Source: Acidobacteriota bacterium (GTDB lineage Bacteria > Actinomycetota > Acidimicrobiia > Spongiisociales > UBA11373). From it: 34,437 nucleotides of DNA. The stretch lies in NCBI GenBank assembly GCA_022571885.1, contig JACZWZ010000007.1, positions 4,493-38,929 on the forward strand, given 5' to 3'. Shown here piece after piece: positions 3,441-26,869 of the stretch; position 1 is the first letter of the stretch; each line of letters opens with the position of its first letter. The position numbers were made by a program, and so were the translations under genes. The notes beneath the pieces were generated by a model, which did no database searches, was not told where the DNA came from, and saw nothing but the letters and a program-made list of their open reading frames with translations.

Positions 3441-5600
3441 GTGACTGCCTCGAGCCGGGCGCCATCGCGCCGCATCGATATCGACCGCCCTTGGATTCGC
3501 TTCGCCGTGCCGGCGCTCCTCACTCTGGGGGCGCTGCTGGCGTTCGGGTTCATGCGGCCCGACCGTCTGTTCCTGGCGAACACTCCGACCGGCGGCGACA
3601 TGGGAGCCCACGTGCTGGTGCCCGCCTACATCCGCGACACCTTGTTGCCGAGTGGCCGTCTGCTGGGGTGGAGCAATGACTGGTACGCCGGGTTTCCGAT
3701 CCTGTACTTCTACTTTCCGTTGCCGGCGTACACAATCGTGTTGCTCGATGTGTTCGTGCCCTATGGAGTCGCCTTCAAGCTGGTGACCGTTGCCGGCTTG
3801 GTTGCGCTGCCGTTCGCCGCCTATGTGTTCGCCAGGGGGATGGGGTTGGCGAAGTCGGTGTCGGTGGTGGCGGGCATTGCGGGCGGGACCTTCATATTCA
3901 TGGAGTCGTTCTCGATCTTTGGCGCCAATACGCTGTCGACCCTCGCCGGGGAGTACTCGTTCTCTTGGTCGTTCGCCTTGTCGTTCGCCTACCTCGGTCT
4001 CCTCATGAAGAACGTGCGCGAAGGGAGGGGGTTTACTGCGTCTACCGGCGTGTTGCTTGCCCTCACTGCGCTCACCCACCTCATCACCACCGTCGTCGTT
4101 GTTCTGGTGTCTCTCCCGCTGCTGTTCAGGCGACGCGGGCCGGCGATACTCGTCGGGAGTTGGGTCGTCGGATTCGGCATTGCAGCCTTTTGGGCACTGC
4201 CGCTCTTGGCGACGGTTTCGTATACCACGGACATGAGGTGGTTCCCGATCACCGGGTTCGATGCCGTCTTCCCGCGAGAGCTGTGGCCGGTCTTGGTGCT
4301 CGCCGGCGGCGGACTCGCATATTCGATTTGGCGCCGGGTGACACTGGGGCCGGTCTTGGCGCTGCTGGTGATGCCGGTTGCCGGCTACTTCATCATCCAA
4401 TATGTCGACTTTCGCAAGCTGTATAACGCCAGGTTGCTCCCGTTCTGGTTCTTTACGGTGTTCCTGCTTGCCGGCATAGCCGTTGGTGCCGTTGCCAAGT
4501 CGATCGCGCAACGGGTTCGGGGTGGAACGGAAGTGCGGTGGGTTGCGGCCGCGGTGGGCGTGGTCTTTTTCCTGACTGTGGCCGGCTTGGGTGTCAACAA
4601 GGCGCCGAAGTGGGCGACTTGGAACTACAGCGGCTACGAGGCCAAGGCTGTGTACGCCTACGGAGAGGATGGCGAGGAGATTCTCCAGACCGACTACTGG
4701 GCGGAGTATTCGGGTCTGATGGCCACGCTCGACTCCCTGCCGGATGGCAGGGTGATGTGGGAGGCCAACAGCGACCTCAACAGATACGGAACTCCGATGG
4801 CGCTGATGCTTACCGGATACTGGGTCGAGGGCCACCCTTCGATGGAAGGCCTGCTCTTCGAGTCTTCGTTGACCACGCCGTTCCATTTCATCAACGCGTC
4901 GGAAGTGAGCCAGCGCCCTTCGAACCCCATCCCCGGCCTTCCGTACTCAGGCCTGAATTTCGAGCGCGCGGTCAAACACTTGGCGGTGTTTGACGTTGAG
5001 TACTACGTGTCGTTCACCGAGTCGGCAACACAGGCTGCCCACGAGTTTGGCCTGGATGTCGCCGCGGTATCCGACCCGTTTACCGTCTTCCGGCTCCCGC
5101 CGGCCTCGCTGGTCGATATCGCGTCGTTCGAGCCGGCAGTGTGGGACGGTGATGACACCTTCGTCGATGCTGCGATCGACTGGTACGACCAAGTCGAGAG
5201 CCTCGATCGGTGGATCGTCGAGGATGGCCCTGCGGCGTGGCGTCGGATCGACAATGTGTCACTTCGAAGCCGCCAGGTGATCACGACGTCCGGCGTGGTG
5301 ACTGATATCGTCCTTGAGGATCATCGAATCTCGTTCTCGACCACTGCGGTGGGAGTGCCCCACCTGGTGAAGGTCTCGTGGTTCCCCAACTGGTCCGCCT
5401 CCGGCGCTGATGGACCATATCGCGCCGCACCTTCGCTGATGATCGTGGTACCGACTCAGCAGGACGTGGTCATCGATTTCAAGGAACGACTCCCGGAGAT
5501 GGTCGGGAAGGCGATGTCGGCGGCGACCATCCTCGGGTTGGGCACCATGGCGTTCATTCGGCGGAAGGGTCGGCGGCCGGCGGCCGCCTCCCGCGATTAG
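3441..5600 (+). CDS. Large polytopic membrane protein (YfhO/6-pyruvoyl-tetrahydropterin-synthase-related / glycosyltransferase C-like)
   Basis: 719 aa with many TM helices, short conserved loops (TPTGGDMGAHV, WYAGFPILYFYFPLPA) and a large extracytoplasmic domain. Confidence 0.65.
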   Translation: MTASSRAPSRRIDIDRPWIRFAVPALLTLGALLAFGFMRPDRLFLANTPTGGDMGAHVLVPAYIRDTLLPSGRLLGWSNDWYAGFPILYFYFPLPAYTIVLLDVFVPYGVAFKLVTVAGLVALPFAAYVFARGMGLAKSVSVVAGIAGGTFIFMESFSIFGANTLSTLAGEYSFSWSFALSFAYLGLLMKNVREGRGFTASTGVLLALTALTHLITTVVVVLVSLPLLFRRRGPAILVGSWVVGFGIAAFWALPLLATVSYTTDMRWFPITGFDAVFPRELWPVLVLAGGGLAYSIWRRVTLGPVLALLVMPVAGYFIIQYVDFRKLYNARLLPFWFFTVFLLAGIAVGAVAKSIAQRVRGGTEVRWVAAAVGVVFFLTVAGLGVNKAPKWATWNYSGYEAKAVYAYGEDGEEILQTDYWAEYSGLMATLDSLPDGRVMWEANSDLNRYGTPMALMLTGYWVEGHPSMEGLLFESSLTTPFHFINASEVSQRPSNPIPGLPYSGLNFERAVKHLAVFDVEYYVSFTESATQAAHEFGLDVAAVSDPFTVFRLPPASLVDIASFEPAVWDGDDTFVDAAIDWYDQVESLDRWIVEDGPAAWRRIDNVSLRSRQVITTSGVVTDIVLEDHRISFSTTAVGVPHLVKVSWFPNWSASGADGPYRAAPSLMIVVPTQQDVVIDFKERLPEMVGKAMSAATILGLGTMAFIRRKGRRPAAASRD

Positions 5601-5700
5601 CGATTAGCCCTTAGCAAGAGAGAATCACTCCCCCCTCGAGGGGGAGTCGACCGACGAAGTCGGTCGGAGAGGGGGCCCTCCGACTCCGGGGACTTGCCGC
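5589..5700 (+). repeat. Composite dispersed element, copy 1: heptamers (GCGATTA)2-GCCCTTA-GCAAGAG, CTCCCCCCTCGAGGGGGAGTC, hairpin CGACCGAC-GAA-GTCGGTCG, GGGGGCCCTCCGACTCC
   Basis: Shares TTAGCAAGAGAGAATCACTCCCCCCTCGAG with the reverse strand of 19858-19889 and the GAGTC-hairpin-CCTCCGACTCC frame with 10165-10202 and 19552-19610. Confidence 0.75.
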
Positions 5701-8148: not shown

Positions 8149-8508
8149 ATGGATTGGCGAGAGCGGATCGTCGAGGATCAGAGGCCGTGGGGGCGCTTTA
8201 GGCGCTACTCGCTCAATGAGGTGTCAACGGTAAAGATCATCACAGTTCTGCCGGGGCAGAGTCTGAGCGAACAGCGCCATCAACGGCGTCAGGAGCTGTG
8301 GGTGGTCTTGGACGACGGTATTGAGGTTCGTGTCGGAGACACGGCGACGGTCGCCGACAAAGGTGACGAGTTCTTCATCCCGGCGGGAGAAACCCATCGC
8401 TTGTCGTGTGTCGGCGATGCTCCAGCCCGAATCCTCGAGGTGGCATTCGGCGAATTCGATGAGTCAGACATCGAGCGGCTTTCGGACGACTACGGGCGGG
8501 TGGACTGA
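8149..8508 (+). CDS. Cupin, mannose-6-phosphate isomerase type II-like
   Basis: RPWGRFRRYSLNEVSTVKIITVLPGQSLSEQRHQRRQELWVVLDDGIEVRVGD..FIPAGETHRLS. Confidence 0.8.
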   Translation: MDWRERIVEDQRPWGRFRRYSLNEVSTVKIITVLPGQSLSEQRHQRRQELWVVLDDGIEVRVGDTATVADKGDEFFIPAGETHRLSCVGDAPARILEVAFGEFDESDIERLSDDYGRVD

Positions 8509-8537
8509 GAGGACTCGCCGACAGGCGTGGACGCGGC

Positions 8538-8607
8538 GGCCTGGGGTTGGGGCCCCGGGGGCCGCACTGCGATGAGCCGTGTGGCGAAGAGCCATGGGCA
8601 CAGAGGG
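8538..8607 (+). repeat. Dispersed repeat family C, single copy
   Basis: GGCCTGGGGTTGGGGCCCCGGGGGCCGCACTGCGATGAGCCGTGTGGCGAAGAGCCATGGGCACAGAGGG aligns with the 24379-24807 array unit and with the reverse complement of 33437-33506. Confidence 0.55.
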
Positions 8608-8787: not shown

Positions 8788-10035
8788 ATGAACCACGACA
8801 TCGCAGATCCGTCGCTGGCGGAAGCAGGAGCGCTTCGCATCGAGTGGGCCGAGGGTCGCATGCCGGTCCTGGCCTCGATCCGAGAGCGCTTCGAGAAGGA
8901 GTCGCCGCTGCAGGGGCTTCGTATCGCGGCTTGCCTCCACGTGACCTCCGAGACCGCAAATCTGATGACGACGCTGCGGGCCGGGGGAGCCGAGGCCATG
9001 CTGTGTGCTTCCAATCCACTGTCGACTCAGGATGATGTGGCGGCGGCTCTGGTGGCAGATGGAATCGCGGTCTTTGCGGTTCGGGGGGAGGACAACGACT
9101 CCTACTACTCGCATCTGCGTGAGGTGCTCGACGCCGACCCGCAAATCACCATGGACGACGGCGCCGATCTGGTGACGATGGTGCTCAAGGAGCGTCCGGA
9201 TCAACGCCTCGTCGGGTCGACCGAAGAGACGACGACCGGAGTCATCCGGTTGCGGGCGATGGAGGCAGATGGTGTCATCAGGTTTCCCGTGATTGCGGTC
9301 AACGACTCGGCTACCAAGCACCTGTTCGACAACCGTCACGGGACCGGTCAGTCGGCGATGGATGGCATCATCCGCTCCACCAATCTCCTGATTGCCGGCA
9401 AGACGGTGGTGGTGGTCGGGTTCGGTGACTGTGGGGCGGGTGTGGCGGCACGAGCAGACGGACTTGGGGCGAAGGTGGTCGTGGTCGAGGTCGACGCGGT
9501 CAGGGCCTTGTCGGCGGCGATGGAGGGATACACGGTGGCTACAGCCGACGAAGCTGCACGGATAGGCGATATCTTCATCACCTTGACCGGCAACCTTCGG
9601 GTGCTGCGCGGAGAACACTTCGAGCTGATGAAGGACGGGGTCGTCCTGGCCAATGCCGGTCACTTCGACGTCGAACTGGATCTTGGCTATCTCGCCGACC
9701 ATTCCGTCGGTAAACGCCGCATCCGTCACGAGTTAGATGAATGGACGATGAAGGATGGTCGTCGGATCCACGTGGTGGCAGAGGGTCGCCTGGTCAATCT
9801 CGGCGCGGCCGAAGGGCACCCGGCCGAGGTGATGGATATGTCGTTCGCAAATCAGGCGCTGGCTGCCGAGTGGCTGGCGAAAGACGGTGCCGATCTCGAG
9901 AACAAGGTGTTGCGTCTCCCCGATTCGATCGATCAAGAGGTGGCGGCGATCGCGCTCGAAGCCATTGGTGGCGGACTCGAACAGCTCACCCCGGAGCAGG
10001 AGGAGTACCTCTCCTCCTGGGAGTTTGGGACCTAG
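8788..10035 (+). CDS. ahcY: Adenosylhomocysteinase
   Basis: RIAACLHVTSETANLMTTLRAGGAEAMLCASNPLSTQDDVAAAL; GKTVVVVGFGDCGAGVA; LANAGHFDVE; YLSSWEFGT C-terminus. Confidence 0.95.
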   Translation: MNHDIADPSLAEAGALRIEWAEGRMPVLASIRERFEKESPLQGLRIAACLHVTSETANLMTTLRAGGAEAMLCASNPLSTQDDVAAALVADGIAVFAVRGEDNDSYYSHLREVLDADPQITMDDGADLVTMVLKERPDQRLVGSTEETTTGVIRLRAMEADGVIRFPVIAVNDSATKHLFDNRHGTGQSAMDGIIRSTNLLIAGKTVVVVGFGDCGAGVAARADGLGAKVVVVEVDAVRALSAAMEGYTVATADEAARIGDIFITLTGNLRVLRGEHFELMKDGVVLANAGHFDVELDLGYLADHSVGKRRIRHELDEWTMKDGRRIHVVAEGRLVNLGAAEGHPAEVMDMSFANQALAAEWLAKDGADLENKVLRLPDSIDQEVAAIALEAIGGGLEQLTPEQEEYLSSWEFGT

Positions 10036-10041
10036 TTCTTA

Positions 10042-10128
10042 CCCGGCCGGACTTCGGCGCCAGGGGCGGCGAACAGGCGCTGGTCCGGCCTCCTCCGCAT
10101 CGTGGGGCCCCTGCCCCACGGCGGCCGT
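10042..10128 (+). repeat. Dispersed repeat family B, copy 1
   Basis: Shares GAACAGGCGCTGGTC and CCTCCTCCGCAT-GTGGGGCCCCTGCCCCAC-GCGGCCGT with 25688-25880. Confidence 0.75.
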
Positions 10129-10205
10129 CAGGTATTAGGTAACACTCTCCCCTTGAGGGGGAGTCAAAAGCCGAAGGCTTTTGGTGGGGGTCCTCCGACT
10201 CCGAA
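10129..10205 (+). repeat. Composite dispersed element, copy 2: heptamers GGTATTA-GGTAACA, CTCCCCTTGAGGGGGAGTC, hairpin CAAAAGCC-GAA-GGCTTTTG, GTGGGGGTCCTCCGACTCC
   Basis: Same architecture as copy 1, with an entirely different but self-complementary stem. Confidence 0.75.
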
Positions 10206-19551: not shown

Positions 19552-19612
19552 CCTTGGAGTCGGAGGGCCCCCCCACCAATCGGCTATGCCGATTGGTGGG
19601 GGGACTCACCAA
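19552..19612 (-). repeat. Composite dispersed element, copy 3 (right half), with a perfect 16-bp stem hairpin 19569-19603
   Basis: CCCCCCACCAATCGGC-TAT-GCCGATTGGTGGGGGG directly after secA; flanked by GGAGTCGGAGGG. Could also serve as a secA terminator, but no T-tract. Confidence 0.7.
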
Positions 19613-19765
19613 GTCGCGGCAATCCCGCTGCCCATCTGACGCACACCGGCTCGGCGAACTGACCCACAAGACGCATGATCGAGTAGCTACCCAACCCGGC
19701 GCAACCACCCGGTGAAAGGCCATTACAACACACAAGACGCGTTGGCCTGACGAAGACGAAGACCA

Positions 19766-19818
19766 GGTACCCCCCACCAGCTCGCTTCGCTCGCTGACTC
19801 CCCCCAAAGGGGAGAGTA
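19766..19818 (-). repeat. Composite dispersed element, copy 4 (left half)
   Basis: Reverse complement ACTCTCCCCTTTGGGGGGAGTCAGCGAGC-GAA-GCGAGCTGGTGGGGGG-type sequence; same order as copy 2; stem has a central G-A/A-G mismatch pair. Confidence 0.65.
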
Positions 19819-19856
19819 TTCAGAACAGAACCGTCGGCCCTATCGCCCAACCCGAC

Positions 19857-19917
19857 ACTCGAGGGGGGAGTGATTCTCTCTTGCTAATTGCTAATTGCTA
19901 ATTGCTAATTGCTAATG
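19857..19917 (-). repeat. Composite dispersed element, copy 5 (heptamer end): five direct TTGCTAA copies plus conserved boundary
   Basis: TTGCTAA at 19881, 19888, 19895, 19902, 19909; adjacent ACTCGAGGGGGGAGTGATTCTCTC equals the reverse complement of the 5611-5641 boundary. Confidence 0.75.
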
Positions 19918-23956: not shown

Positions 23957-24414
23957 TGGGTACCAAGAAAATCGCCACCAACCGCCGAGCTCGGTTCAAC
24001 TATGAGATCAGCGAAACGTATGAAGCCGGCATAGTGCTACTCGGATCCGAAGTAAAGAGCCTTCGCGCCGGCCACGCCGACCTCAAGGACTCCTACGCCG
24101 CGGTCCACGGCGGCGAGATGTGGCTGGTGGGGCTCCGCATATCTCCGTATGAGTATGCCCGCGATGGAGGGCACGATCCTGAGAGAGAGCGCAAGCTCCT
24201 TCTCCACAAGCGTGAAATCGAGAAGATCGGAGCCAAGATCGCCGAGAAGGGTCTCTCGCTCCTCCCGTTGAACCTCTACTTCAAGGACGGCAAAGTCAAG
24301 GTCGAACTCGGGCTGGGCAAGGGCAAGGTCCAGCGCGACAAGCGTGAAACCCTCCGGCGCCGCCAGGCGGATAGGGAGATGGAGCGTGCGATGAGGCACA
24401 GGAGTCTTGAATGA
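23956..24414 (+). CDS. smpB: SsrA-binding protein SmpB
   Basis: KKIATNRRARFNYEISETYEAGIVLLGSEVKSLRAG..KLLLHKREIEKIGAKIAEKGLSLLPLNLYFKDGKVKVELGLGKGKVQRDKRETLRRRQADREM. Confidence 0.97.
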   Translation: MGTKKIATNRRARFNYEISETYEAGIVLLGSEVKSLRAGHADLKDSYAAVHGGEMWLVGLRISPYEYARDGGHDPERERKLLLHKREIEKIGAKIAEKGLSLLPLNLYFKDGKVKVELGLGKGKVQRDKRETLRRRQADREMERAMRHRSLE

Positions 24415-24807
24415 GGGGGCGGGTAGCGTGTCGCTCCATCTCGGTCGTCTGGGTAGGGACCCGGGCGACACTGCGATGAGGCTCAGCCGAAGAGCCTTGG
24501 GAGTTGCGATGGAGCGTGCGATGAGGCACAGGAGTCTTGAATGAGGGGGCGGGTAGCGTGTCGCTCCATCTCGGTCGTCTGGGTAGGGACCCGGGCGACA
24601 TGCGATGAGGCTCAGCCGAAGAGCCTTGGGAGTTGCGATGGAGCGTGCGATGAGGCACAGGAGTCTTGAATGAGGGGGCGGGTAGCGTGTCGCTCCATCT
24701 CGGTCGTCTGGGTAGGGACCCCGGGCGACATGCGATGAGGCTCAGCCGAAGAGCCTTGGGAGTTGCGATGGAGCGTGCGATGAGGCACAGGAGTCTTGAA
24801 TGAGGGC
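24379..24807 (+). repeat. ~130-bp tandem array, three full units plus a ~40-bp partial unit
   Basis: ATGGAGCGTGCGATGAGGCACAGGAGTCTTGAATGAGGG begins at 24379, 24509, 24638, 24768 (periods 130, 129, 130); copies differ by single-base indels; the first unit includes the last codons of smpB. Confidence 0.95.
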
Positions 24808-25292: not shown

Positions 25293-25642
25293 GGGGGTGA
25301 CATGGTTTCGACTTTGAGGGTTGAAGCGTCGGAAGCGAGCCGAGGTCCCCGGAGTCCTCGTTAAAGAGCCGGGAAACAATACAAGTGCCGAAGACAACTT
25401 CGCACTGGCTGCTTAACAATGCAGCTCGTCCGTCTGGAGGGTTCCCCTCTCACCAGGTCCGGGCGTCGCAATAGGGGACGCTCCCGCCGGGATTGCCGGG
25501 ACCGGCGGGTCAAGACCACTCCGGCTAGGGCGCAGGACCACCCGCCGATAGGGCCCTGCGTTCCGAAGCTCGCTATCGGCTGCGCTCGGAGATGCCGACG
25601 CTGATGCCTCAGAGGACCGGGGTTCGACTCCCCGCACCTCCA
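25293..25642 (+). ncRNA. ssrA: tmRNA
   Basis: 5' GGGGGTGACATGGTTTCGAC, tag reading frame GCC GAA GAC AAC TTC GCA CTG GCT GCT TAA, 3' CCGGGGTTCGACTCCCCGCACCTCCA; acceptor ends pair GGGGGTG/CACCTCC. Confidence 0.95.
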
Positions 25643-25645
25643 CTC

Positions 25646-25673: not shown

Positions 25674-25680
25674 TCGTGGT

Positions 25681-25882
25681 GTTGTATTCCCGGGCCGACT
25701 TCGCCCTCCGCTTCGCTTCGGGTGAACAGGCGCTGGTCGGCCCTCCTCCGCATAGTGGGGCCCCTGCCCCACTGCGGCCGTGTTGTATTCCCGGGCCGAC
25801 TTCGCCCTCCGCTTCGCTTCGGGTGAACAGGCGCTGGTCGGCCCTCCTCCGCATAGTGGGGCCTCTGCCCCACTATGGCCGT
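25681..25882 (+). repeat. Dispersed repeat family B, two tandem 101-bp copies
   Basis: GTTGTATTCCCGGGCCGAC at 25681 and 25782; nearly identical copies, each containing hairpin GTGGGG-N6-CCCCAC. Confidence 0.92.
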
Positions 25883-26026
25883 GTTCCTGAGGAACCCTCT
25901 TTTCAAGCGGGCCTCTCAGCTTCAGTCCCAGATGTGGGGGGTCGTCACCTGCGGGACGCGGCGACCCGGTCGGTGCGATCGTGCCGTCGAGTCCCCAGTC
26001 TCCAGCCAGAACGAGGGAGGCTCTTT

Positions 26027-26056
26027 GGTGACTGGTGACTGGTGACTGGTGACTGG
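26027..26056 (-). repeat. Heptamer tandem repeat (CCAGTCA on the minus strand) x4, abutting the ABC permease stop
   Basis: GGTGACT at 26027, 26034, 26041, 26048, followed by GGT and the stop codon at 26057. Confidence 0.88.
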
Positions 26057-26869
26057 TTACGCCAGCAACAGCTTGTCGAGGCGGCGGGAAGTGACGGCGA
26101 CTCCGATCGCGCCCATGGCTAACAGGAATGCGATGTGGCCCACGAGGCTGAAGTCGAACACGCCCAGTGTCAGCGCTCGGATCAACTCGACTCCGTGGTA
26201 GAGCGGAGAGAACTTGGTGAGGATCTTGAAGACGTCCGGGTACACATCGAGCGGGTAGAAGGTGCCGGAGAACAAGAAGAGGGGCAATGTCACCATGTTT
26301 ACCAAGTCGAAGTCCTGCCACGACTTCATAAATGTGGTGGCCGCCATCCCCACCGCGGCGAAGGCGAACCCGATCAGAACTGCTGCCGGTATTGCCATCA
26401 CGGCCCACGGCGAGTGGGCGTACCCGGCAACGGTGATCACGACCAGAAAGGCGGTCGCATAGAGCGCCCCGCGACCCAGTGACCAGGTGATCTCACCGAT
26501 GGCGATGTGGCGGGGGAGCATCGGTGTGGAGAGGATGGCGTCGTAGACCTTGCCGTAGCGGAGCTTGAAGAAGATGTTGAACGTCGATTCGAAAATCGCA
26601 CCGTTCATGGCAGACGCCCCGAGCAACGCCGGCGCCACGAACGCCGCATAGGCGACCGGCTCACCGCCGGGGCCGGTGACATCGCCGATCAGTTCGCCGA
26701 GGCCGATGCCGATCGAGAAGAGGTAGAAGATCGGCTCGAAGAACCCAGAGAACACGATCAGCCAGACGCGCCGGTAGACCAGGAAGTTGCGCTCGAGCAT
26801 CTTGGTGGCTCCGCCTCCGAGCATCGGAGGCGGGATCACCCGAGCCATCAGAGTCGCCGAGTCGCTCAT
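26057..26869 (-). CDS. ABC-2 type transporter permease
   Basis: Six TM helices; YGKVYDAILSTPMLPRHIAIGE, LFLFSGTFYPLDVYPDVFKIL typical of ABC-2 (DrrB/NodJ-like) permeases. Confidence 0.88.
   Translation of the reverse strand: MSDSATLMARVIPPPMLGGGATKMLERNFLVYRRVWLIVFSGFFEPIFYLFSIGIGLGELIGDVTGPGGEPVAYAAFVAPALLGASAMNGAIFESTFNIFFKLRYGKVYDAILSTPMLPRHIAIGEITWSLGRGALYATAFLVVITVAGYAHSPWAVMAIPAAVLIGFAFAAVGMAATTFMKSWQDFDLVNMVTLPLFLFSGTFYPLDVYPDVFKILTKFSPLYHGVELIRALTLGVFDFSLVGHIAFLLAMGAIGVAVTSRRLDKLLLA

Follow-up and report, generated by a model that had tools for sequence, protein, structure and literature searches.

The window analysed here, a stretch of 34,437 nt, covers positions 4493-38929 of contig 69 in a 2.79-Mb Acidimicrobiia MAG of 228 contigs. 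Its SecA is 87% identical to the SecA of an Acidimicrobiia MAG, and a tmRNA gene lies at 25293-25645 (Rfam RF00023, 164 bits). A first-pass annotation had pointed to palindromic intergenic sequences at 5589, 10129, 19552, 19766 and 19857 with a shared frame and changing hairpin stems; the sequences are as described and the observation as a whole was confirmed. The repeated unit is ~50 nt long and consists of a near-invariant hairpin 1 (CTCYCC-loop-GGGGAGTC), a variable hairpin 2 and then GGTGGGGG, with the fuller consensus CACTCYCCCC-loop-GGGGGAGTC, hairpin 2, GG(T/A)GGGGG.

Unit A (5625-5687, plus strand) has hairpin 1, ACTCCCCCCTCGAGGGGGAGT, at 5627-5647, hairpin 2 at 5649-5665 (GACCGAC-GAA-GTCGGTC, with the closing pair C5648-G5666) and the tail GGAGAGGGGGCCCTCCGACTCC. 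It lies in a convergent gap between genes ending at 5600 (plus) and 5724 (minus). Unit B (10142-10202, plus strand) has the same arrangement, with hairpin 1 at 10144-10164, hairpin 2 at 10166-10182 (AAAAGCC-GAA-GGCTTTT) and the tail GGTGGGGGTCCTCCGACTCC, and is likewise in a convergent gap, the neighbouring genes ending at 10035 (plus) and 10222 (minus). The C-D-E cluster starts 9 bases after secA.

The three sequences of this last cluster had been counted as independent copies but amount to one unit split by a MITE that brought in a unit of its own. Read on the minus strand, E (19905-19858) holds the left half of an A-type unit, matching the corresponding part of unit A at 92%, which runs as far as CTCGA in the hairpin-1 loop and breaks off after AAGAGAGAATCACTCCCCCCTCGA; at 19857 a truncated IS481-type MITE begins (19578-19857, minus strand; 93% identity to the complete copy L060:90-434), with its right end GTGTCGGGTTGGGCGATAGGGCCGACGG in place and its left end missing. 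Unit D (19770-19819, minus strand; AGCGAGC-GAA-GCGAGCT, with a tandem G-A mismatch) is the right-hand unit of this MITE. The MITE ends in its own AATCGGC stem. The right half of the host unit comes next, as GCCGATTGGTGGGGGGGCCCTCCGACTCC, and extends to 19556. C (19556-19603, minus strand; AATCGGC-ATA-GCCGATT-GGTGGGGGGGCCCTCCGACTCC) is this right half fused to the AATCGGC unit of the MITE, and forms a perfect palindrome with arms of 16 bp. C and E are thus the two halves of a single host unit, and D is part of the guest. The missing MITE end and host segment were probably lost by deletion between the two CAATCGGC repeats of MITE and host. Inversion through the palindrome, also considered as the origin of C, was dropped in favour of this simple deletion because the alignment to the MITE does not go past the stem and neither half of the host unit is missing.

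The units are not confined to a few loci. The pattern CTCYCCN{3,8}GGGGAGTC gave 161 whole-genome matches, with overlapping CTCTCC and CTCCCC starts counted twice, against 1 for the reversed control pattern. A covariance model (R1) built from 24 unit copies returned at least 150 matches in the genome itself, and 134 in the sister genome, which is the sole other genome of the genus; further genomes from the family gave 63, 31, 18, 14 and 14. Across the order, 138 genomes searched under stricter filters included 22 with matches at E<=1e-6. The assembly is broken up at these repeats, and the 1.17 Mb of 2.79 Mb (42%) that was read directly includes stretches picked for containing units, so densities from it are not to be extrapolated. 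The tail CCTCCGACTCC, annotated as part of the shared frame, belongs only to a subset of the units, namely A, B and the split host unit of 19552/19857. Whole units also occur as tandem arrays with a 55-90 bp period (L158:4499-4850 on contig C6 of G001; L037:2088-2248 on contig C40 of G000) and as inverted doublets. Many flanks match between G000 and G001, but the copies are not alike and the intergenic DNA has diverged too far for any orthologous copy with an altered stem to be traced from one to the other; at the sites of units A and B, G001 has no unit.

The two arms of hairpin 2 had been proposed to change together, with pairing kept over sequence, and covariation was indeed far above shuffled and slid controls. 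In an unselected own-genome set of 134 matches (110 distinct rows), 92.8% of cells were paired against 82.9% with the 3' letters shuffled, and double-sided changes were found in 145 cells against 35 in shuffles and at most 18 in slid controls, counts that are inflated by the descent of the copies from one another and by model-fitted alignments, which favour the structure of the model. All 8 pairs of hairpin 2 were altered on both sides in this genome; hairpin 1 was nearly invariant. Double-sided changes numbered 130 against 51 in the control for the sister genome and 102 against 30 for a set drawn from five other genera of this family plus two further families. In the set of 52 distinct 17-nt stems that leaves out the AGCGAGC class, pairing reaches 93.4% of positions, while the shuffled mean was 75.8% and the maximum of 2000 shuffles 81.3%. 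Twelve distinct fully paired 7-bp arms were seen, including AATCGGC, AAACGCC, AAACGGC, AAACACC, AAAAGCC, GACCGAC and AACGGCC.

Compensated stems of this kind could arise in two ways, both of which the first-pass annotation had offered: selection on the structure, or a copying process that regenerates one arm. If template switching or hairpin gene conversion rewrote one arm from the other, stems would drift unselected and always look compensated. Many stem classes do differ by transversion swaps (A-T to T-A, C-G to G-C) with few intermediates seen, and under point mutation such swaps require an unpaired intermediate; chimeric stems such as AAACGGC-GGA-GCCGATT are also found. Arm-copying should, however, erase the tandem G-A mismatch of the AGCGAGC-GAA-GCGAGCT class (about 69 copies across two genomes), which is kept in 20 of 27 distinct stems and 60 of 69 copies, and the arms of hairpin 1 show no drift. 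This stem, first described as imperfect, is a fixed class with a conserved mismatch and not a product of random decay; the pairs beside the mismatch change on both sides (AGCGAGC to AACGAACC/GGTGAGTT). The C-GAA-G loop noted at first is one case of a broader rule, C-GNA-G with N free, which holds in 68 of 106 distinct stems and 153 of 215 copies. DNA mini-hairpins of the d(GCGNAGC) type have unusual stability, and only one of the two strands forms them. Among departures from Watson-Crick pairing, G-T cells outnumber A-C cells by 18 to 7 in a raw count over related copies. The loops, the persistent mismatch and the G-T excess together indicate selection on the folded G-rich strand and disfavour arm-copying as the main cause. 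Selection is the better fit to the turnover of hairpin 2 stems and its likelier cause; we consider arm-copying an unlikely explanation.

Whole loci show that many units form the interior of a gene-free element of ~365 bp with the ends GTGATCTGTCGCGGTTAGTGCCCGACGG and GTGTCGGGTTGCGCGATAGGGCCGACGG, and this MITE carries two units of its own near its ends. Its junctions lie within other units, in the apical loop of their hairpin 1 (CACTCCCCCCTCGAG/GTG and ATCACTCTCCCCTTTG/GTG, with the slash at the junction), and a nested series is found at L055:4646-4816. Within the 1.17 Mb read directly, a C-run stands 3-8 nt before the MITE end at 48 of 51 ends, against 12% of random positions, and CCCC precedes 40 of the 51 ends against a background of 2.5%. 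Clear target duplications accompany two copies (CCACAG at L060, CTTTGG at L070).

Four rve genes were found in the genome, of which one, on C205, is intact and encodes a protein of 323 aa; the others were rejected as intact IS481 partners, the C228 gene being IS3-like and those on C9 and C40 fragments. The C205 gene lies between CTCTCCCCTTTGG and CCAAAGGGGAGAG, and its product matches Pfam rve and rve_3 and, best of all families, NCBIfam IS481 (NF033577) at 165.6 bits. As this is below the equivalog cut-off of 224, the transposase is a divergent member of IS481. Element ends in relatives across the order were located without use of the flanks, and a C-run precedes 18 of 19 of them, against the same background of 12%. 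The G001 copy (L191) is a clean insertion into an AATCGGC-stem unit, with ACTCCCCCCAAAGG before and CCAAAGGGGAGAGT after the element and an exact CCAAAG duplication; the G057 copy (L204), between TTCCCCCTCCAG and CTCCAGGGGGAAG, has an exact CTCCAG duplication in TTCCCC-CTCCAG-GGGGAA. Two further duplications differ by one change (CTTGAG/CTCGAG at L207, CGTCAG/CCTCAG at L205), and at L206 and L190, the latter the IS copy of G000, the flanks are mutually inverted instead of direct repeats. Hairpin 1, taken at first for a mere frame, is where these IS481-like elements insert. Single autonomous elements (L204, L205) bear both types of MITE end with 1-3 differences from those of the MITE, and because the G057 copy does so, the MITE is assigned to this IS481 group, whose transposase would mobilise it. 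In the unit-rich genomes G006, G008 and G012 no IS481 relative was found at E<=1e-20; units can therefore persist or move without IS481.

With respect to genes, none of 71 unit clusters lies inside one, with 83% of the sequence coding according to a simple codon-based gene finder. The 53 clusters with both neighbours comprise 22 in convergent, 24 in tandem and 7 in divergent gaps, against 112, 340 and 137 (19% convergent) for all gaps. This placement, with its enrichment in convergent gaps, and the excess of G-T over A-C would also suit a purely RNA-level account, in which the units are 3'-end processing or termination hairpins multiplied by other means and the insertion sequences are drawn only by C/G-rich sequence. 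Against this, no T-run follows the hairpins, an Rfam search of the window returned the tmRNA alone, with the units matching no curated family, and many units are parts of a MITE with defined ends and target duplications; we regard the RNA-level account as improbable.

The account that we favour, at a probability of about 0.72, begins with REP-like bipartite palindromes residing between the genes of this Acidimicrobiia family, with near-invariant C-run/G-run arms in hairpin 1 and compensated, class-specific stems in hairpin 2. IS481-family elements and the ~365-bp MITE, which share terminal repeats, enter the apical loop of hairpin 1, or that of similar CCCC-N4-6-GGGG palindromes, with a target duplication of ~6 bp. 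With two units near the MITE's ends, every insertion adds landing sites, and nested mosaics like that in the window result. Hairpin 2 stays foldable, and the most likely reason is that the G-rich strand is under selection to fold as a hairpin while single-stranded, in ssDNA or RNA. The account covers MITE-borne units; the spread of solo units without MITE ends falls outside it. IS481 insertion would be guided by recognition of the hairpin and not just of its sequence. More tentatively, the transposase may target the extruded loop, with the MITE bearing landing pads into which it nests itself, sparing genes, and hairpin 2 serving as the structural part of the pad.

REP-like palindromes with compensated stems are a known kind of element. 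REPs have stems with alternative complementary residues, ascribed to 'selection for complementary mutations' (PMC2817692; also PMC3733652), and the present units resemble REP, BIME and REPIN elements with their RAYTs (PMC2817692, PMC3116915, PMC3733652) in copy number, intergenic location, bias to the 3' side and convergent gaps, 6-9 bp compensated stems, inverted doublets and clusters. They differ in their two hairpins, C-GNA-G loops, Actinobacteria host and lack of both a GTRG tag and a Y1/RAYT transposase. A classical REP/REPIN mobilised by RAYT or another HUH Y1 transposase, although matched in size, copy number, inverted doublets, convergent bias and stems (PMC3733652, PMC2817692), is very improbable here, as Y1_Tnp (PF01797) had no match in G000, G001, G006, G008 or G012, with control genomes positive, and was found in 1 of 31 genomes, one with a single unit, while the GT(A/G)G tag does not occur beside the stem, which has GAGTC before it and GG(T/A)G after. 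The first-pass interpretation as a dispersed REP/MITE-like element is therefore retained without its RAYT/IS200 link, the linked elements being IS481-like.

CGTC REPs, which have a CGTC/TGTC/CCTC tag, a stem of 8-9 bp, a 4-5 nt loop and a CCA tail (PMC3733652), are like these units in that the first two stem pairs are almost always A-T (here in 27 of 30 and 30 of 30 distinct fully paired stems), GTC lies directly 5' of the stem and no dedicated transposase is known. The units here have instead an AGTC tag, a 7-8 bp stem, a 3-nt loop, a GG(T/A)GG tail and the additional hairpin 1. Specific insertion inside a dispersed palindrome is also known from REP-targeting insertion sequences, namely IS1397 and ISKpn1 (IS3), IS621 (IS110) and members of IS4, IS256 and IS5 (PMC1525189); IS481 is absent from the families of that survey, and here the derived MITE also bears the target palindrome. 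Like IS481 members, the elements here encode a DDE/rve transposase (~330 aa), end in short terminal repeats and duplicate 6 bp of target. In that family, ISRe46 of TnRErm46 duplicates NCTAGN (PMC6794481), whereas here insertion is into the loop of a CCCC-N4-6-GGGG palindrome, the duplications are CTCCAG, CCAAAG, CCACAG and CTTTGG, and the ends start with GTG. What is new is that the transposase linked to these REP-like units is IS481-like, and a search limited to open-licence papers found none on IS481 elements or MITEs that target palindrome loops. The lineage bears on how palindromes spread in RAYT-free genomes, a question also posed by CGTC REPs, which are noted to lack a dedicated transposase (PMC3733652). 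Its REP-like elements are tied physically to a different and ordinary DDE transposase family with loop-specific insertion, so that one can test directly whether DNA secondary structure governs the choice of target and whether the elements direct themselves to safe sites.

Further repeats were seen. One is a second intergenic family, dispersed and ~93-101 bp long (CCGGCCGGACTTCG...GAACAGGCGCTGGTC...GTGGGGCCCCTGCCCCAC), which occurs at 10036-10128 and, as two tandem copies, at 25679-25885, with many copies in the sister genome. The segment at 8505-8601, after a gene ending at 8508, is probably another dispersed repeat, given several matches of 81-87% at other places in the sister genome. A 130-bp unit at 24378-24806 is present in 3.3 copies with 99% matches, and the repeat runs across the 3' end of an SmpB-like gene. 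Differing tandem heptamers (GCGATTA, TTGCTAA, TGGTGAC, TTGTCTG, CTATCGG) are repeatedly found next to the palindromes, including in a different family of the order; in the window they lie at 5593-5608 (GCGATTA, plus strand, beside unit A), 19881-19916 (TTGCTAA, plus strand, beside E) and 26026-26057, and elsewhere near 10770 of L040 and 1400-1440 of L193.
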